Source: Microtetraspora niveoalba
GTDB lineage: Bacteria > Actinomycetota > Actinomycetes > Streptosporangiales > Streptosporangiaceae
NCBI RefSeq assembly: GCF_001570405.1
Contig: NZ_BBYM01000009.1
Location: forward strand, 62,001 to 126,000
Direction of reading: 5' to 3'
Length of the DNA stretch: 64,000 nt
Below, piece after piece: positions 2,172 to 56,611 of the stretch. Position 1 is the stretch's first letter. Each line of letters begins with the position of its first letter. The translations under genes were made by a program, and so were the position numbers. The notes beneath the pieces were generated by a model that was not told the DNA's origin, made no database searches, and worked only from the letters and a program-made list of their open reading frames with translations.

Positions 2172-2759
2172 GGTTCTGCAATCCCGCTGGAGCTGCTCCG
2201 TACCCAGCCGCCCAAAGAGCGTGCCGACGCCGCGCGCAACCGGGTCGCCGTGCTGGAGGCGGCCGCGCGGCTGTTCGCCGAGCACGGCGTGGCCGCGGTC
2301 TCCATGGACCAGATCGCCGCGGCCGCCGGGGTCGGCAAGGGCACGCTGTTCCGGCGCTTCGGCGACAAGTCGGGGCTGGCCGTCGCACTGCTCGACGCAC
2401 GGGAACGGGTGCTGCAGGAGGCGATCCTGCACGGACCGCCACCGCTGGGCCCCGGGGCGTCGCCCGCCGAGCGGCTCACCGCGTTCGTCGACGCCTACCT
2501 CGACTACCTGCTGAAACACCTGGACCTGGTGCGGGTGTCGGAGACGGCGGCGCCCGGCGCCCGGTATCGGATCGGGGCCTACCGCTTCTGGCACCGGCAT
2601 GTGGCGATGTTGCTGGACGGCGTACCCGACCCGGACCACGCCGCGCACGCCCTGCTCGCCGCGCTGGCGGCCGAGCACGTGAGCGCCCTGCTGCCCGAAC
2701 TCGGCGAACCGCGTGTCCGGGCCGGGCTGCGCCGCCTCGCCGAGAGGTGCCGGGCCTGA
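2142..2759 (+). CDS. TetR/AcrR-family transcriptional repressor
   Basis: A 205-residue regulator. The N-terminal helix-turn-helix is canonical: ARNRVAVLEAAARLFAEHG, then MDQIAAAAGVGKGTLFRRFGDKSGL at about residues 27-80. A variable ligand-binding C-terminal domain follows. I chose the ATG at 2142; the ATG at 2124 would put the perfect operator palindrome inside the coding sequence. The gene is divergent from the rhodanese gene and the two share the operator, so it probably represses itself and the rhodanese in the absence of an unknown effector, perhaps a reactive sulfur or electrophilic compound (inference). Confidence 0.9.
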   Translation: MPADNSGPQSGSAIPLELLRTQPPKERADAARNRVAVLEAAARLFAEHGVAAVSMDQIAAAAGVGKGTLFRRFGDKSGLAVALLDARERVLQEAILHGPPPLGPGASPAERLTAFVDAYLDYLLKHLDLVRVSETAAPGARYRIGAYRFWHRHVAMLLDGVPDPDHAAHALLAALAAEHVSALLPELGEPRVRAGLRRLAERCRA

Positions 2760-2826
2760 ATGAGCCGGCCGGCCGGAGGGGCGGTGACGGCTGGAAGAAA
2801 GTTCTAGAGCTTGGTGTGCTTCCGGG

Positions 2827-2854
2827 TGTCGAGAATGTGGTGCCGGCTCCGTCC
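2827..2854 (+). promoter_or_regulatory. Candidate ECF42-type sigma promoter
   Basis: TGTCGA at 2827-2832 (-35) is followed after 17 bases by CGTC at 2850-2853 (-10). This agrees with the promoter type reported, as I recall it, for ECF42 sigma factors (TGTCGA at -35 and CG-A/T-C at -10). It precedes the YCII gene by about 50 bases, in front of the YCII-sigma factor operon, which would make the operon autoregulated. Confidence 0.65.
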
Positions 2855-2905
2855 CAGGGGCACGAGCGGCCACGACGGGCCGCGCGAGGAAGAAGGAGAA
2901 CCACC

Positions 2906-3313
2906 ATGAAGTACCTGCTGCTGAAGCACTACCGAGGCGGCCCGGCTCCCGCTGTCGACTGGGTGCCGATGGACCGGTGGACGCCGGAGGAGGTCGACGC
3001 GCACGTGCAGTACATGCGCGACTTCGCGGCCCGCCTGGAAGAGACGGGTGAGTTCGTCGACGGACAGGCACTGGCCCCCGAGGGCGCGTTCGTGCGGTAC
3101 GACGGCGAGGGGCGTCCGCCGGTGACCGATGGTCCGTTCGCCGAGACCAAGGACCTCATCGCCGGCTGGATGATCATCGACGTGGAGTCCTGGGATCGCG
3201 CGGTCCAGCTGGCCGGGGAGCTGTCCGCCGCTCCCGGGGCCGGCGGCGAGCCGATCCACGAGTGGCTGGAGGTCCGACCGTTCCTCACCGAGTCGCCCAC
3301 GGTGACCGAGTGA
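2906..3313 (+). CDS. YCII (DGPF)-domain protein
   Basis: A 135-residue protein of the YCII-related/DGPF family. It opens MKYLLLKHYRGG and carries the diagnostic TDGPFAETKDLIAGWMIIDV segment at about residues 73-92. A strong AGAAGGAG ribosome-binding site precedes the ATG. The gene overlaps the next gene by four bases (GTGA), the standard arrangement of ECF42 sigma factors with their YCII partners, and a matching sigma promoter lies upstream. The enzymatic role of these YCII proteins is not established; they are the main known target of the linked sigma factor. Confidence 0.92.
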   Translation: MKYLLLKHYRGGPAPAVDWVPMDRWTPEEVDAHVQYMRDFAARLEETGEFVDGQALAPEGAFVRYDGEGRPPVTDGPFAETKDLIAGWMIIDVESWDRAVQLAGELSAAPGAGGEPIHEWLEVRPFLTESPTVTE

Positions 3314-4455
3314 ACGAGTCGTTGCTGCGGGAGCTCGTGCCCGCGGTGATCGGTGTCCTCGTCCGGCGCGGAGCAGATTTCGCGTCGGCCGAGGACGCCG
3401 TGCAGGAGGCCCTGATCCGGGCGCTGGAAACCTGGCCGGACGATCCACCGCGCGACTCGAAGGCATGGCTCGTCGCGGTCGCGTGGCACAGGTTCCTCGA
3501 CGCCGCGCGTGCCGAGGCGTCCCGGCGGGGGCGGGAACTCGCGGTGGAGGTCGAGCCTCCCGCGGGTCCGGCGCCCGCCACGGACGACACGCTGCGGCTC
3601 TACTTCCTGTGCGCGCACCCCACCCTGCCGCAGGGCTCGGCCGTCGCCCTGACGCTGCGCGCGGTCGGTGGCCTGACCACGCGGCAGATCGCGGCGGCGT
3701 ACCTCGTCCCCGAGGCGACCATGGCGCAGCGGATCAGCCGGGCCAAGCGGCGGATCGCGGGGCTGCCACTCGACCAGCCCGGCGATCTCGGGACGGTGCT
3801 ACGGGTTCTCTACCTGATCTTCAACGAGGGGTACGGCGGGAACGTCGACCTGGCGGCCGAGGCGATCCGCCTCGCCCGCCAGCTCGTCGCCCTGACCGAC
3901 GAGCCCGAGGTCGCGGGGCTGCTCGCGCTCATGCTGCTGCACCATGCGCGCCGCGCGTCCCGCACCGGCCCGGGAGGTCGCCTGGTGCCGCTCGCCGAGC
4001 AGGACCGATCGTGCTGGGACACCGGTCTGATCGGCGAGGGGGTGACGATTCTCCAGGCCGCGCTGGCCCGCGACCGGCTGGGCGAATACCAGGCGCAGGC
4101 CGCGATCGCCGCCCTGCACGCGGACGCCCGGTGCGCCTCCGAGACGGACTGGGTGCAGATCGTGGAGTGGTACGACGAACTGCTGCTCCTCACCGGCAGT
4201 CCGGTGGTCCGACTCAACCGCGCGGTGGCGGTCGGGGAGGCCGACGGACCGCGGGCCGGTCTGGCGGCGCTGGCCGAGGTGAACCCCGATCTGCCCCGTT
4301 ACACCGCGGTGACGGCATACCTGCACGAACGCGCCGGCGACCTCGAGCACGCCGCCGAGCTGTACGCCGAGGCCTCCCGCGCCGCAGCCAGCGTGCCGGA
4401 GCGCGACCACCTCACTCGAGAGGCCGCCCGGGTACGGCAACTGCTGCGCCCGTGA
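3310..4455 (+). CDS. ECF42-group RNA polymerase sigma factor with C-terminal TPR-like extension
   Basis: 381 residues, about twice the length of a minimal ECF factor. Region sigma-2 spans about residues 5-75 (AEDAVQEALIRALETWP; WLVAVAWHRFLDAAR). Region sigma-4 spans about 100-160, with the helix-turn-helix LTTRQIAAAYLVPEATMAQRISRAKRRI. The remaining 220 residues form the helical repeat extension typical of ECF42, including NEGYGG, SPVVRLNRAVAVGEADGP and LHERAGDLEHAAELY. The start GTG overlaps the YCII stop. There is no anti-sigma gene next to it; in this group the C-terminal extension is thought to control activity instead. Confidence 0.94.
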   Translation: MNESLLRELVPAVIGVLVRRGADFASAEDAVQEALIRALETWPDDPPRDSKAWLVAVAWHRFLDAARAEASRRGRELAVEVEPPAGPAPATDDTLRLYFLCAHPTLPQGSAVALTLRAVGGLTTRQIAAAYLVPEATMAQRISRAKRRIAGLPLDQPGDLGTVLRVLYLIFNEGYGGNVDLAAEAIRLARQLVALTDEPEVAGLLALMLLHHARRASRTGPGGRLVPLAEQDRSCWDTGLIGEGVTILQAALARDRLGEYQAQAAIAALHADARCASETDWVQIVEWYDELLLLTGSPVVRLNRAVAVGEADGPRAGLAALAEVNPDLPRYTAVTAYLHERAGDLEHAAELYAEASRAAASVPERDHLTREAARVRQLLRP

Positions 4456-51239: not shown

Positions 51240-51722
51240 GTGGAGGTCGAACAGACAGCGCTGCCCGGAATAGGGCTGCGTCACGAGTTCGTCACGCAGG
51301 CGGGCAGGCGCATCGGTGTCGTGTCGCACCGTACGGGGCGCCGCGACCTGATCGTGTACGACCGCCTCGATCCCGACCGCGCGTGTGAGGCCATCAAGCT
51401 GAACGACGAGGAGTCGGACGCCCTGGCCGAGCTGCTGGGCGCGCCCCGGATCGTCCAGCGGCTCAACGCCCTCCATCGCGAGGTGGAAGGGCTCGTCAGC
51501 GAACAGCTCCCCATCGCCCCGGGCACCCCGTACGCGGGGCGGCCGATGGGAGACGCGCGCGTGCGCACCCGGACGGGGACGTCGATCGTCGCCGTGGTGC
51601 GCGCCGGACAGGTGATCGCGAGCCCGGGACCGGAGTTCGTGCTTCAAGCAGGAGACGTGGTGGTCGTGGTAGGAAGCTCAGAAGGCACCGAGGCCGTCGC
51701 CGAGATCATGGCGAACGGGTAG
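51240..51722 (+). CDS. Cation:proton antiporter regulatory subunit (KhtT-like, TrkA-C domain)
   Basis: 160 residues. The N-terminal part is EQTALPGIGLRHEFVTQAGRRIGVV, and a TrkA-C (RCK C-terminal) domain at about 85-158 contains GTSIVAVVRAGQVIASPGPEF and GDVVVVVGSSEGTEAVAEI. It gates the membrane antiporter encoded 8 bases downstream, probably in response to a nucleotide or cation. A GTG start with AAGGAG five bases upstream. Equivalent to KhtT of Bacillus potassium efflux systems; no KhtS homologue is seen. Confidence 0.9.
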   Translation: MEVEQTALPGIGLRHEFVTQAGRRIGVVSHRTGRRDLIVYDRLDPDRACEAIKLNDEESDALAELLGAPRIVQRLNALHREVEGLVSEQLPIAPGTPYAGRPMGDARVRTRTGTSIVAVVRAGQVIASPGPEFVLQAGDVVVVVGSSEGTEAVAEIMANG

Positions 51723-51730
51723 GGCAGCGG

Positions 51731-52888
51731 GTGCACACAGCGATCCTCTTCGTCGAACTCGGTGGTGTAATTCTGGCGCTGGGCGTGCTCGGAGCGCTCG
51801 CCCTGCGCGTCGGTATCTCTCCCATCCCCCTCTATCTGATCGCCGGTCTCGCCTTCGGCACCGGCGGCATCCTCCCCCTCGCGACCAGTGAGGACTTCAT
51901 CTCGGTCGGCGCGGAGCTGGGCGTCATCCTCCTGTTGCTCACCCTCGGCCTCGAATACAACGCGGACGAGCTGGTCACCAGCCTCCGCGGCAACTTCCGC
52001 GGCGGTCTCGTCGACCTGGTACTCAACGCCGCCCCCGGCGCCGTATGCGCCCTCCTGCTCGGCTGGGGACCGGTCGCGGCGATCGCGATGGCCGGCGTCA
52101 CCTACGCCACGTCATCCGGCATCACCGCCAAGGTGCTGTCCGACCTGGGCTGGATCGGCAACCGGGAAACCCCGGTGGTGCTGTCGCTGCTGGTCTTCGA
52201 AGACCTCACGATGGCGCTGTACCTGCCGATCCTCACCGCCGTCCTCGCCGGGGTGAGCTTCATCGGCGGCGCGGTCACCGTCGCCATCGCGCTCGCCACC
52301 GTCAGCGTCGTCCTCCTGGTCGCCCTGCGGTACGGCCGCGTCATCGAGGCGTTCGTGCGCAGCCCCAACTCCGAGGTCCTGCTGCTCAAGGTGGTCGGCC
52401 TGGCCCTGCTGGTCGCGGGCCTCGCCCAGAAGCTGCAGGTCTCGGCCGCGGTCGGCGCCTTCCTCGTCGGCATCGCCCTGTCCGGCGAGCTGGCCGAGGA
52501 CGCCCGCGCCCTGCTCTCCCCGATCCGCGACCTGTTCGCCGCGGTGTTCTTCGTCTTCTTCGGCCTGCAGACCGACCCGGCCGCCATCTGGCCCGTCGCC
52601 GGTCTGGCCGCGCTCCTCGCCGTCGTCAGCATGATCACCAAGCTGGCCACCGGCGCGTACGCGGCCCGGAGGGCAGGCATCGCACGGGAAGGCCGGGTAC
52701 GGGCCGGCATCGCCCTCATCCCGCGAGGCGAGTTCAACATCGTCATCGCCGGACTCGCGGTCGCCGCCGGGGCACATCCGGACCTCGGCCCCCTCGCCGC
52801 CGCGTACGTCCTGATCCTGGCGGCGTTCGGCCCGCTGGCCGCCCGCCTCGTCCAACCCCTCATCGCCGCCGTCGCCCGCCGCGCCTGA
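51731..52888 (+). CDS. CPA2-type cation:proton antiporter (KhtU-like)
   Basis: 385 residues, about 12 to 13 membrane helices. The transport core shows GVTYATSSGITAKVLSDLG and the family segment FAAVFFVFFGLQTDP; PRGEFNIVIAGLA is near the C-terminus. It exports K+ or Na+ in exchange for protons, controlled by the TrkA-C subunit encoded just upstream. GTG start. A near-perfect terminator hairpin follows 12 bases after the stop. Confidence 0.93.
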   Translation: MHTAILFVELGGVILALGVLGALALRVGISPIPLYLIAGLAFGTGGILPLATSEDFISVGAELGVILLLLTLGLEYNADELVTSLRGNFRGGLVDLVLNAAPGAVCALLLGWGPVAAIAMAGVTYATSSGITAKVLSDLGWIGNRETPVVLSLLVFEDLTMALYLPILTAVLAGVSFIGGAVTVAIALATVSVVLLVALRYGRVIEAFVRSPNSEVLLLKVVGLALLVAGLAQKLQVSAAVGAFLVGIALSGELAEDARALLSPIRDLFAAVFFVFFGLQTDPAAIWPVAGLAALLAVVSMITKLATGAYAARRAGIAREGRVRAGIALIPRGEFNIVIAGLAVAAGAHPDLGPLAAAYVLILAAFGPLAARLVQPLIAAVARRA

Positions 52889-52899
52889 CAGACCCGTCC

Positions 52900-52934
52900 C
52901 CTTGGCGATCGAGTCGGCCACTCGATCGCCAAGG
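52900..52934. terminator. Terminator hairpin after the antiporter operon
   Basis: A perfect 15-base stem (CCTTGGCGATCGAGT and complement) with a 5-base loop. It ends two bases before the first unit of the inverted-repeat region. Confidence 0.85.
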
Positions 52935-53131
52935 AATGGTGACCGCTGCGCTGCGGCGGGCGGTTGCTCCGGTGTAAATGGTGGCGGCGGCGGATCGAAG
53001 CTGTATCCGGTTCGCTCTGCTGGATGGTGACGGCTGCGCTGCGGCGGGCGGCTGCTCCGGCGCAAATGGTGGCGGCGGCGGATCGGAGCCGTATCCGGTT
53101 CTCGTCGCCTCATGGTGACCGCTGCGCTACG

Positions 53132-53245
53132 GCGGGCGGCTGCTCCGGCGCGCCGTGATAGTTGCGCTCTGCCGATTCCCCGCTTCGCGGTCTCGGGCGC
53201 GGTGGTACAGGGCACGGTCTTACGCGCGCCGGAGCAACCGCCCGC
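53132..53245 (+). repeat. 114-base element with 22-base terminal inverted repeats, copy A (left arm)
   Basis: It starts GCGGGCGGCTGCTCCGGC and ends with the complement (one mismatch in 22). The body includes CGCTTCGCGG, GGGCGCGGTGGTACAGGGCA and CGGTCTTACGCGCG. It resembles a miniature inverted-repeat element or a structured RNA/DNA repeat. Confidence 0.8.
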
Positions 53246-53373
53246 ACTCCGCTCCGCTCGCCACCGCCTTGCCCCCGTCGCCGTCACCGCACCGTCTCGT
53301 CCTCGGCCTGCTTCTCGCCGCAGGCCGGAAACCAGACTCATGGCTCGCGCCGTCTGAGATCACGCTGCGCTGC

Positions 53374-53487
53374 GGCGGATGGCTCCTCCGGCGCGCCGTG
53401 ACAGCTGGTCTCTGGTGCAACCGCTTCGCGGCTCCGGGCGCGGTGGTACAGGGCACGGTCCTACGCGCGCCGGAGGCCCCACCCGCC
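53374..53487 (+). repeat. 114-base element, copy B (left arm), diverged ends
   Basis: Same length and same internal strings as copy A (CGCTTCGCGG, GGTGGTACAGGGCACGGTC, GCGCGCCGGAG), but the terminal arms (GGCGGATGGCTCCTCCGGC versus GGCGGGTGGGGCCTCCGGC when complemented) have several mismatches. Copy A and copy B are direct repeats within the arm. Confidence 0.78.
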
Positions 53488-53796
53488 TCCGCTCCGCTTC
53501 CCCGCCGTTTCGGCCTCCCCGCTCCGCCGTTCCGATTTCCAGGTTCACCGCCGTATGGGTCGGTCTCGTTTCTCATGTCGGCGTGGGAGTGCTTCGCCTC
53601 GTTTCGGAAGGGGGGATGCCTTCCCGGCCCGGCCTTTTCGCTAGGGCGGGGATGTGGAGGCGGCCTTCTCGCCAGGCGGGCTCTCCGCCTCGCCGAAGCG
53701 GCGTTCGCACGGCCGTCGTCCAGGGAGTAGGTGAGTGGGGGCGTTCCGCAAGGCGGTGGGGTGGGCGGCAACAGGCCAAGGTGGCTTGACGAGTGG

Positions 53797-53853
53797 TTAC
53801 GCGACGAGCAGGAGCACGCTGATCGCCGGCATCACCACTGCGGTAGCGCCGTG
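53797..53853 (-). pseudogene. C-terminal stub of a DUF4267-like membrane protein gene
   Basis: Reading leftward, the last 18 codons before a TAA read HGATAVVMPAISVLLLVA, which matches the C-terminal helix of DUF4267 small membrane proteins as I know them. Upstream of His the frame is meaningless. Such genes are often neighbours of TetR regulators, so this looks like the end of the regulator's former target, whose body has been deleted. Confidence 0.45.
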
Positions 53854-53921
53854 GAGTAGAGGCGATGTCGCGCACAAGCGCGATAGCAGCGCTAGTTGTG
53901 ATAGCGACGATATTCCTATCG

Positions 53922-53949
53922 TAGACATGATGTCTAGCATTGCTATGAT
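53922..53949 (+). promoter_or_regulatory. Operator and -10 box of the TetR gene inside the inverted repeat
   Basis: TAGACATGATGTCTA (53922-53936) is a perfect 15-base palindrome, followed by TAGCA-T-TGCTA (53935-53945). TATGAT (53944-53949) is a good -10 hexamer just six bases before the ATG, so the transcript is probably leaderless. A repressor bound here would shut its own gene. Confidence 0.6.
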
Positions 53950-53955
53950 GTCGCT

Positions 53956-54549
53956 ATGTCCGCCATCGCCAAACGTCGCGAACGTGAACGCGCCCAACGC
54001 CATCAGCTGATCATCACGGCCGCCCGCGAACTGGCCGAGGCCGAAGGGTGGGAGGCGGTGACAACGCGAAAGCTGGCTGAGCGCGTCGAGTACAGCCAGC
54101 CTGTGCTTTACAGCCACTTCAACGGGAAGGACGCCATCCTGCGCGCCGTTGCCCTCGAAGGCTTCGGTGAACTCGCGGCCCGCCTGCGCCGTGCCCGGCT
54201 GGCCACCCCCGAGCCGCCTCAGGCGCTGCACGCCGTCTGCCGCGCTTACCTGGAGTTCGCGGCCGAGCAGCCCGCCCTCTACCAGGCCATGTTCGTCCTG
54301 CCGACCGATGTGAAGTTCGCGCACGCCGAGACGCCGCCCCCACTGCGCGCCGCTTTCGACGAGTTCGTGAACTGCTTCCGCTCGGACAACTCGCGACGTG
54401 AACTGTTCGCCGAAGTCACCTGGAGCGCGTTGCACGGCATGGCCGTCCTGTCGGACAGCGGCCGCATCCCCCCGAACGGCCAAACGGAGCGGCTCGACTT
54501 CCTTGTCACCCAGATCGCCGGCACACCAAGTGGACCGGCCACGCTGTGA
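53956..54549 (+). CDS. TetR-family regulator (WHG-domain type) enclosed by the inverted repeat
   Basis: 197 residues. The helix-turn-helix covers about residues 10-65 (QRHQLIITAARELAEAEGWEAVTTRKLAERVEYSQPVLYSHFNGKDAIL). The C-terminal domain has AVCRAYLEFAAEQPALYQAMF, characteristic of WHG-type TetR proteins. No Shine-Dalgarno sequence; the -10 box is six bases upstream, indicating leaderless translation. The operator palindrome suggests autoregulation. The likely former target (DUF4267 gene) survives only as a stub. The surrounding DNA is slightly more AT-rich than its neighbours. Confidence 0.9.
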   Translation: MSAIAKRRERERAQRHQLIITAARELAEAEGWEAVTTRKLAERVEYSQPVLYSHFNGKDAILRAVALEGFGELAARLRRARLATPEPPQALHAVCRAYLEFAAEQPALYQAMFVLPTDVKFAHAETPPPLRAAFDEFVNCFRSDNSRRELFAEVTWSALHGMAVLSDSGRIPPNGQTERLDFLVTQIAGTPSGPATL

Positions 54550-54743
54550 AGGGCCATTGAGAGGCCAAGGGGCTGAGCCGAGCCACTGGCAGGCCGAGGA
54601 AGGTACGCGGCCGTGATCGATGGCGGGCCTGGTTTCTCGGCGGATCCGTTCGATCTTGTCGTGAAGGTGGCCGGCGGCGGGCCGGTGGGACGGGGATCGA
54701 CCGAATCGCGTGGTCAGAGGGTGCGGCGGGGAAGCGAAGCGGA

Positions 54744-54857
54744 GGCGGGTGGGGCCTCCGGCGCGCGTAGGACCGTGCCCTGTACCACCGCGCCCGGAGC
54801 CGCGAAGCGGTTGCACCAGAGATCAGCTGTCACGGCGCGCCGGAGGAGCCATCCGCC
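54744..54857 (-). repeat. 114-base element, copy B' (right arm)
   Basis: Inverted counterpart of the copy at 53374-53487, nearly identical to it. Confidence 0.78.
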
Positions 54858-54985
54858 GCAGCGCAGCGGCGATCCCCGCCGTGCAGGACCATGCGCTGGT
54901 TTCCGGCCTGCGGTGAGAAGCAGGCCGAGGACGAGACGGTGCGGTGACGGCCACGGGGGCAAGGCGGTGGCGAGCGGAGCGGAGT

Positions 54986-55099
54986 GCGGGCGGTTGCTCC
55001 GGCGCGCGTAAGACCGTGCCCTGTACCACCGCGCCCGAGACCGCGAAGCGGGGAATCGCCAGAGCGCAACTATCACGGCGCGCCGGAGCAGCCGCCCGC
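54986..55099 (-). repeat. 114-base element, copy A' (right arm)
   Basis: Inverted counterpart of the copy at 53132-53245, with the same 22-base terminal inverted repeats. Confidence 0.8.
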
Positions 55100-55343
55100 C
55101 GTAGCGCAGCGGTCACCATGAGGCGACGAGAACCGAGCAGGGTTCCGTTCCGCCGCCGCCACCATTTACACCGGAGCAACCGCCCGCCGCAGCGCAGCGG
55201 TCACCATGAGGCGACGAGAACCGGATACGGCTCCGTTCCGCCGCCGCCACCATTTGCGCCGGAGCAGCCGCCCGCCGTAGCGCAGCGGTCACTGTTCGGC
55301 GAGGTGAACCCGGCACCGCCTCAATACCGCCACTCCAGCGCCG

Positions 55344-55976
55344 TCACCCCACGCCGAAGTCGGCCCGGCAGGCGTCCAGGCCGTGGATCTCCACCGGAAC
55401 GGGGGAGACGAAGTCCTCGCGCAGCAGCCGGAAGTGGTGGTCGACGACCCGGCGGCCGCGCACCGCGACGATGTCGTGGCCGTCGGGCCGGTAGCCGAGC
55501 TTGCGCGAGACGGCGTGCGACGCCTCGTTGCCGGAGAGCGCGGAGGAGATCGCGCTCTCCGCTCCGAGTCCCGCGAAGGCCAGGTGGAGTACGGCGGCGC
55601 GCATCTCGGTGCCGATGCCCTTGCCGTGGTGGGCGCGGCCGAGCCAGGATCCGCTGCCGACCTCCCGTGTGACGGCGAAGTCGGTCGCCCGCAGACATTG
55701 GGTGCCCACGACCTGTCCCTCGTGGACGATCATGAAGTAGCAGCGCCAGTTCTCCGGCGTCCAGTTCGCCAGGGCGGCGAGCTGGCTCCGGATCAAGCGT
55801 CCGGGCAGCTCCTCGGCCGGAGCGTCCGTCCAGGAGGACAGGAACGGCATGAACTCCGGGTCGTGTATTCCTTCGACGGCCCGGTCCGCGAGTCGGTCGA
55901 GGTCGTCGAGGGTAGGCAGCCGGAGTTCGAGGCGAGGCGTGGTCAGGCGGAGATCGAGGAGCGGCCAGTGACGCAT
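55344..55976 (-). CDS. GNAT-family N-acetyltransferase (RimJ/RimL type)
   Basis: 210 residues. It opens with TPRLELRLPTLDDLDRLADRA, as in the RimJ/RimL-like subgroup. The acetyl-CoA-binding loop is GRAHHGKGIGTEMRAAVLHLAF at about residues 113-134, and the NEASHAVSRKLGYRPDG strand-helix follows. It transfers an acetyl group to an unknown amine (protein N-terminus, antibiotic or small molecule). Standing alone next to the right repeat arm and divergent from the next gene. Confidence 0.91.
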   Translation of the reverse strand: MRHWPLLDLRLTTPRLELRLPTLDDLDRLADRAVEGIHDPEFMPFLSSWTDAPAEELPGRLIRSQLAALANWTPENWRCYFMIVHEGQVVGTQCLRATDFAVTREVGSGSWLGRAHHGKGIGTEMRAAVLHLAFAGLGAESAISSALSGNEASHAVSRKLGYRPDGHDIVAVRGRRVVDHHFRLLREDFVSPVPVEIHGLDACRADFGVG

Positions 55977-56077
55977 GGCCTGGATTGTCGTGGAAGGCGG
56001 GACATGACGGCATCCGTTTTTCTTTCTATCGTTGCTTGCGGGATGCCGGGCGCACCGCCGTACCTTCGAGGATCGAT

Positions 56078-56611
56078 GTGACCACCAGCAGGACGCCGTC
56101 GCCGTTCGAGCCGGGGGAGACCTCCCTCATCGTGAGGACGCCCGAGGCGGAGCCGATCGTGAGCCGATGGCGGGAGCGGTTCGACCCGTCGGCGGCGTAC
56201 GGCGTGCCCGCCCACGTCACCGTCCTCTACCCGTTCCTTGAGTACGCGCGGATCGACGCCGCGGTCGTGGCGGAGCTGCGGGAGCTGTTCTCCGGTCACG
56301 CGGCGTTCGAGTCGCGGCTCGCGCGGTGTGGCCGCTTTCCCGGCATCCTGTACCTCGTTCCCGAGCCGGAGGAGCGGTTCGTGGCGTTGACGGAGGCGGT
56401 GGCCGCGCGCTGGCCGGAGGCTCCGCCGTACCGGGGGCAGTTCGACGAGGTGATCCCGCACCTGACGGTGGCGGACGGCGACGACCTCGACACGATCGAG
56501 CGGGAGGTCGCGGCCCGCCTCCCGGTGGTCGTCCGCGCCCTGTCGGTGTCGCTGGAGGTGTTCGACGGCGAGCGGTGGCGTCAGGAGGCCGAGTTCCCGC
56601 TGCGGCCGTGA
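56078..56611 (+). CDS. 2'-5' RNA ligase-like 2H phosphoesterase
   Basis: 177 residues with two H-x-T motifs, the catalytic pair of the 2H superfamily: AHVTVLYPF at about residue 41 and PHLTVADG at about 127. The protein opens with TSLIVRTPEAEPIVSRWRERFDP. Members cleave or form 2',5' or cyclic phosphate bonds in RNA or nucleotides; the substrate here is unknown. The GTG start has GAGGA five bases upstream. Confidence 0.9.
   Translation: MTTSRTPSPFEPGETSLIVRTPEAEPIVSRWRERFDPSAAYGVPAHVTVLYPFLEYARIDAAVVAELRELFSGHAAFESRLARCGRFPGILYLVPEPEERFVALTEAVAARWPEAPPYRGQFDEVIPHLTVADGDDLDTIEREVAARLPVVVRALSVSLEVFDGERWRQEAEFPLRP

Follow-up and report, generated by a model that had tools for sequence, protein, structure and literature searches.

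The long inverted repeat around a tetR gene of Microtetraspora niveoalba is one copy of an apparently undescribed, hairpin-bearing repeat family of soil actinomycetes. We consider it rather probable that the repeat marks a docking site for accessory genes without a resident recombinase, where the repeat arms would bring about gene conversion, inversion and the exchange of cassettes. In the window (i.e. the whole stretch of 64,000 nt that was analysed), the initial annotation had singled out inverted arms of 569 bases around a TetR gene, a structure for which no known counterpart could be named. Arms and gene are real (Table 1), but the structure is not a one-off built around TetR; instead, it is one member of a family present in 11 genera.

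The window site lies between two convergent genes, for a Na+/H+ exchanger and a GNAT acetyltransferase. A repeat search of the window returned two ungapped inverted matches, an outer one of 402 nt (52934-53335 against 54896-55297, 93% complementary) and an inner one of 145 nt (53363-53507 against 54724-54868, 99% complementary). Global alignment of the left with the right arm gives 93.9% identity over 571 positions; their inner ends are 1216 nt apart. The third 88-nt repeat of the right arm is 69% alike and extends past the arm end. The mismatched patch noticed earlier between the arms was found again, 27 bases long: in this patch, the left arm is similar to the arms on contig C23 of the same genome (G000), and the right arm to those of the orthologous site in M. 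fusca (G001). From this, we infer that the left-arm patch was converted from another site. A chance origin of the arms is excluded, because the arm recurs elsewhere in G000 and in all four genomes of the genus searched. The near-palindrome TAGACATGATGTCTA is a possible operator for tetR. As for a link of this TetR to viruses, 15 pattern matches were obtained in viral contigs and none was confirmed.

Table 1. Features of the inverted-repeat site and its flanks (positions in the window)
Feature	Position	Strand	Description or basis
Left flanking gene, Na+/H+ exchanger family	51731..52888	+	points at left arm
Left arm	52934..53507	+	88-nt tandem repeats (outer) and two hairpin elements
Two 88-nt tandem repeats, left arm outer part	52936..53111	+	repeat family D3
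Hairpin element, left arm outer unit	53121..53270	+	covariance model R1
Mismatched patch, left arm, 27 bases	53336..53362	+	between the two ungapped matches
Hairpin element, left arm inner unit	53364..53510	+	covariance model R1
Enclosed cargo segment	53508..54723		repeat search
Near-palindrome TAGACATGATGTCTA, 15 nt	53922..53936		19 nt upstream of tetR ATG
TetR-family regulator, 197 aa	53956..54549	+	PF00440 E=3.5e-14; PF13305 E=1.3e-13
Gene-stub region, right inner edge	54592..54721		74% identity to same edge in G001
Hairpin element, right arm inner unit	54721..54867	-	covariance model R1
Right arm	54724..55297	-	inverted copy of left arm
Hairpin element, right arm outer unit	54961..55110	-	covariance model R1
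Three 88-nt tandem repeats, right arm outer part	55083..55346	-	repeat family D1
Right flanking gene, GNAT acetyltransferase	55344..55976	-	points at right arm

Each window arm contains two copies of a quasi-palindromic hairpin of about 139 nt, whose stem is long and whose interior is conserved. When 28 cores were aligned, both members of the pair had changed in 16 of 31 stem pairs, and 95.0% of cells were paired, values favoured by the derivation of the structure from this same alignment; neither was reached in any of 500 shuffles, and slid versions of the structure gave 2-7 two-sided pairs. An earlier alignment had two-sided changes in 6 of 24 pairs. Stem changes are nearly all from one Watson-Crick pair to another, and helices 1 and 2 include a single G-U cell. 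As the stem thus keeps its Watson-Crick pairs, we infer that the conserved feature is a palindrome in DNA and not an RNA; correction of the quasi-palindrome during replication could alternatively account for the stem compensation. That the hairpin interior is so strongly conserved suggests a function beyond the provision of homology. A known structured RNA was also considered, and Rfam gave no match up to E=1 within 51500-56500 of the window. In two other genera (L178-L181 and L172-L177), arm homology reaches about 80 nt inward of the hairpin, to the edge of the aligned DNA, and these inward extensions have the motif GCTGAAGC in common.

The distribution of the family was examined with two models. 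Covariance model R1 detected the element in 18 of 75 genomes, at 1-25 elements per element-bearing genome, and model R2, filtered strictly (E of 1e-4 at most), in 33 of 200 Streptosporangiaceae genomes, or 11 of 68 genera. R2 counts were higher than R1 counts in G008 (13 vs 11), G018 (8 vs 6) and G068 (15 vs 14) and, under the stricter filters, lower in G003 (15 vs 20) and G070 (15 vs 25). A degenerate pattern in which 23 bases are fixed matches 53 of 59 local copies; it occurred in 72 stretches of a named genome collection, all belonging to Microtetraspora, Microbispora, Planotetraspora or Acrocarpospora. The four Microtetraspora genomes with arm matches are G000, G001, G002 (M. glauca) and G003 (M. 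sp. NBRC 16547). Besides the window site, G000 has inverted pairs on contig C23, enclosing FAD-binding monooxygenase-like, GntR/TetR, reductive-aminase-like and TetR genes, and on contig C16, enclosing epimerase, HAD hydrolase and luciferase-like genes; single arm copies are located at C43, at C44 and at a second place on C9, the contig of the window. Membership in a known repeat family had been named as grounds for refutation. A repeat family was indeed found, but it matched no named family in Rfam, among plasmids and phages or in the literature: the plasmid and phage searches, made with a view to the origin of the arm, gave no match, and no description of the family was found in the open-licence literature searched, which is weak evidence of absence.

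The elements are strongly oriented with respect to each other. When 171 R1 places were reduced to 163 elements in 18 genomes by merging tandem units less than 400 nt apart (R2 elements excluded), 40 of the 42 neighbours at most 12 kb apart faced inward, one outward and one in direct orientation, orthologous pairs being non-independent observations in these counts. Under uniform random placement, about 2.85 pairs of any orientation would be expected. Inward pairs are spaced by 616-9405 nt. By the 12-kb rule, 83 of the 163 elements are unpaired, some of them at contig ends and others not; in G068, all 14 R1 elements belong to inward pairs, and in G070, whose genome is a single contig, 12 of the 25 elements are in pairs.

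Both the setting and the content of the pairs follow a pattern. Of 25 pairs with retrieved DNA, 22 had both flanking genes predicted, and in 16 of these 22 the flanks were convergent; among neighbouring genes of the window, 11 of 52 pairs are convergent (binomial P=3e-7). With orthologous sites counted once, in a manual count, the figure is 10 of 14 (P=8e-5). A flanking gene that points at an arm ends 47-323 nt ahead of the hairpin. Between the arms, 22 of the 25 pairs contain 1-9 predicted genes, commonly regulators (TetR, MarR, MerR, PadR, GntR, BTAD, sigma factors), oxidoreductases and hydrolases. GC3, based on gene calls from a simple script, is 0.901 in cargo (n=72 genes) and 0.936 in flanks (n=85 genes), and from its lower GC3 the cargo looks acquired. 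The earlier remark that no transposase or integrase is visible holds for the window cargo and for 60 other proteins scanned: none of these 61 proteins in or beside arms, covering 25 of 44 listed cargo genes, matched a transposase or integrase family, and no recombinase family was found among the scanned cargo proteins. The 61 include one UvrD-helicase-like protein and two DUF222 proteins.

Several individual sites can be mentioned separately. Elements are located just 3' of genes that look parB-like by eye at L091, L099 and L179 (three genomes of two genera); in G018, the parB-adjacent elements form a pair around a WD40-like gene. Elements of subfamily B lie downstream of genes resembling, by eye, phosphate transport genes: L078 and L082 are pairs spanning 0.8 kb with no predicted gene, and L066 is a single element near a contig end. 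In Microbispora hainanensis (L140, 284-6424), a pair surrounds two similar, by eye LacI-like regulators in direct orientation, which flank a large secreted-looking protein. A cassette of G008 (L172, 3589-5388) combines an ABC ATPase that by eye resembles ABC-F proteins with a GNAT acetyltransferase. Finally, a 609-nt stretch of cargo with 86% identity is present at two different sites in two species (L237 2779-3386 and L221 5273-5880), possibly reflecting cargo movement between sites.

DUF222 genes occur in multiple copies in Microtetraspora. Arms of G003 have a DUF222 protein next to or between them (DUF222 being its only Pfam match, with an HNH-like C-terminus by eye); by manual count, 7 of 25 DUF222 matches in this genome are at most 4 kb from an arm. 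Sites with DUF222 (13E12-like) in G003 comprise L071 (1-2031), L077 (3610-5616) and L072 (3163-6734), and two contig ends lie inside the family.

We compared the content of orthologous sites between species. At the window site, both arms are present in G001, where tetR exists in pieces only and is joined by genes for a subtilase and a sigma factor and by a third gene. In G003 the arms are split over two contigs, the right one being accompanied by a DUF222 protein, and G002 has no arm. A second site, beside a gene that is response regulator-like by eye, was compared in 16 genomes of another genus. Three states were observed there: i) eight genomes had neither arm nor cargo, with 24-207 nt between the genes, ii) four had arms with three different cargos, namely a MerR gene in G008 and G068 and other genes in G060 and in G070, and iii) four had 1.6-5.8 kb of other DNA and no arms. 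As for iii), no inverted repeats of at least 40 nt were found around the arm-less cargos of G063, G064, G065 and G067. Between arm-less and armed genomes, the intergenic DNA is too variable for a target duplication to be read. Many further same-site pairs carry unlike cargo in between-species comparisons. At one of the sites, designated (b), different DNA was counted for G000, G001 and M. malaysiensis only; G003 was left out because its gene list runs beyond the MarR-like gene of the right flank. As these comparisons of sequence indicate, related species have lost accessory genes within arm pairs, exchanged them and, at two sites, reversed their orientation.

The inversions were seen in two of ten between-species comparisons with shared cargo. 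In L174/L220 (G008/G068, the site compared in 16 genomes), the flanks align in plus orientation (left 98.2%, right 92.7 and 97.8%), whereas arm and cargo (2413-3748) align in minus orientation at 93.1%. In L175/L245 (G008/G070), both flanks align in minus and one cargo gene in plus orientation (811 nt, 82%). The remaining eight comparisons were colinear (L172/L235, L173/L237, L175/L238, L176/L254, L176/L247, L243/L248, L249/L251 and window/L060), L176/L254 being judged from match totals only. L238/L245, which shows the same inversion as L175/L245, and the colinear L247/L254 were not counted again, and L177/L239 (G008/G068, colinear) was kept outside the count, only one arm having been detected in G008. 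Both inversions could also represent independent insertions in opposite orientation. The earlier proposal that the enclosed segment might flip is largely upheld: enclosed DNA is inverted between species at two sites in a related genus, but not at the window site, where G000 and G001 agree in the orientation of the cargo edges.

At several sites, paired arms within a genome are more alike than orthologous arms between genomes. At the inverted site L174/L220, the arms are 97.0% (G008) and 97.4% (G068) identical within the genome and 89.6-90.6% between genomes in any combination. At the window site, left and right arms are 97.4% identical in G001, next to the 93.9% of G000, and the four cross-comparisons gave 91.2-91.8%. 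A further shared site was equally clear (93.2 and 93.8% within pairs, 89.9 and 89.5% between orthologues); two others were mixed (88.5 and 93.6 against 91.8 and 91.1%, and 92.9 and 85.5 against 90.5 and 87.2%). Since this pattern recurs at several sites including the window, the arms seem to recombine, and the gene conversion suggested earlier from the similarity of the window arms is largely borne out.

A model of a docking site, which we regard as the likeliest account, would combine these observations as follows. Two facing, hairpin-bearing repeats between convergent genes would frame a replaceable cargo, in the window tetR. Host homologous recombination would act on the arms, given that arms within one genome are similar enough to recombine. 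According to the model, i) crossing-over within a pair would invert the cargo, ii) gene conversion would keep the arms alike, and iii) the cargo would be swapped when arms undergo exchange with those of another site or of incoming DNA. Such changes would be tolerated in convergent intergenic space because no promoter is cut off.

Two further accounts assign the hairpin a more specific role, and we hold both to be possible though unlikely. The first regards the hairpin as a recombination site of fixed polarity, read by a putative host or element protein, so that cassettes would be captured, inverted and traded among many docking sites of the chromosome in an integron-like manner, again without a resident integrase, making this a separate class of gene-cassette system of actinomycetes; we offer it only tentatively. 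The second, to which we would give equally modest credence, considers arm, cargo and arm together as a non-autonomous mobile element, with the hairpins as ends moved by a recombinase encoded elsewhere, perhaps the DUF222 protein of G003. The appearance of arm pairs as units against arm-less sites would fit such an element, as would the shared polarity of 40 of 42 close neighbours and the strongly conserved hairpin interior with its compensated stem; moreover, at several G003 sites the DNA shared by the DUF222 cassette stops just outside the hairpin. However, DUF222 is absent from G008 and G018, both of which bear arm pairs, and is thus not a general engine of the family. The scanned cargo is also free of transposase and integrase families, and while differences in cargo at the same site are many, the same cargo at two sites was noticed outside G003 in one possible case (the 609-nt stretch above).

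Alternatively, the arms might provide the convergent genes with structured 3' ends, acting as bidirectional terminators or as stabilisers, and the cargo would merely have landed between them. The conserved fold and the short distance between the ends of the flanking genes and the hairpin would be expected of such ends. Nevertheless, we find this improbable: at the site compared in 16 genomes, 12 do without an arm (eight without cargo, four with other cargo), the stem pairs would fit a DNA palindrome better than an RNA, and a genome contains merely 1-25 elements. Still harder to sustain is a phase-variation switch that would turn tetR on and off by inverting the segment. The arms are long enough for recombination, and inversions did occur at two other sites, but the segment includes tetR together with the palindrome upstream of it, so that a flip need not alter expression; other sites hold other cargo, and the window cargo edges kept their orientation between G000 and G001. 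We consider such a switch very improbable. Finally, an assembly artefact, proposed earlier as a way to refute the structure and favoured by the many contigs that end near arms, is hardly credible, as the assembly of another species (M. fusca) has the pair at the same site and one-contig genomes also have pairs.

Among known systems, the docking sites may by analogy work in the manner of minimal mobile elements into which inverted homology arms are built; minimal mobile elements are not known to carry mobility genes of their own. In Neisseria, they are described in PMC3082526 as differing whole-gene cassettes between two conserved genes, brought in via homologous recombination. The likeness consists in different cassettes between the same conserved genes, both at the window site (G000, G001, G003) and at the site compared in 16 genomes. 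The present arms differ in forming a dispersed family of long hairpin repeats in inverted arrangement, subject to homogenisation and inversion, and the comparison here is between species, not strains.

REPINs are likewise palindromic repeats arranged as inverted doublets in extragenic space (PMC3116915), and REPs are given as 20-40 bp (PMC3733652). In a REPIN, two short REPs and a spacer make up one hairpin; in contrast, each element here is itself a hairpin of about 139 nt, with arms of up to about 570 nt and pairs 0.6-9.4 kb apart. RAYT (Y1 transposase) was rejected as a driver: PF01797 had no match in the element-bearing G000 and G002 and was present in 9 of 12 genomes searched. In Haloquadratum, PATEs (transposase-free, with near-terminal palindromes) and SMRs (inverted ends, no target duplication), as characterised in PMC3119063, resemble the present family as transposase-free repeats with palindromes or inverted ends. 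By description, however, these are too short to encode a transposase, whereas the ends described here enclose whole genes; unlike PATEs, which lack terminal inverted repeats, the present family has palindromes and also ends that repeat one another in inverse orientation. REP13E12 is named as a class of repetitive element in mycobacteria in PMC10589994. The likeness lies in the multi-copy DUF222 genes of Microtetraspora, some of them beside or between arms in G003, but DUF222 is missing from two arm-bearing genomes and the arms hold many other cargos.

The family also differs from composite transposons and IS elements, in that no transposase was found among the 61 proteins scanned, and from MITEs, which are too short to code, in that 22 of 25 pairs enclose predicted genes. 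Integron cassettes involve directly repeated attC sites and an integrase; here, one direct neighbour stands against 40 inward ones, and the scanned cargo contains no integrase. Invertible elements are approached insofar as a segment was found in both orientations in two of ten between-species comparisons, with one genome per species, and in none at the window site.

If the docking-site reading is right, the family would provide a visible sequence mark for the points at which accessory genes enter chromosomes of rare actinomycetes with no obvious mobile machinery involved. The accessory genes at such sites comprise regulators, oxidoreductases, a subtilase and an ABC ATPase that looks ABC-F-like. 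That long hairpin inverted repeats alone might serve as gene-trading posts is now a testable idea.
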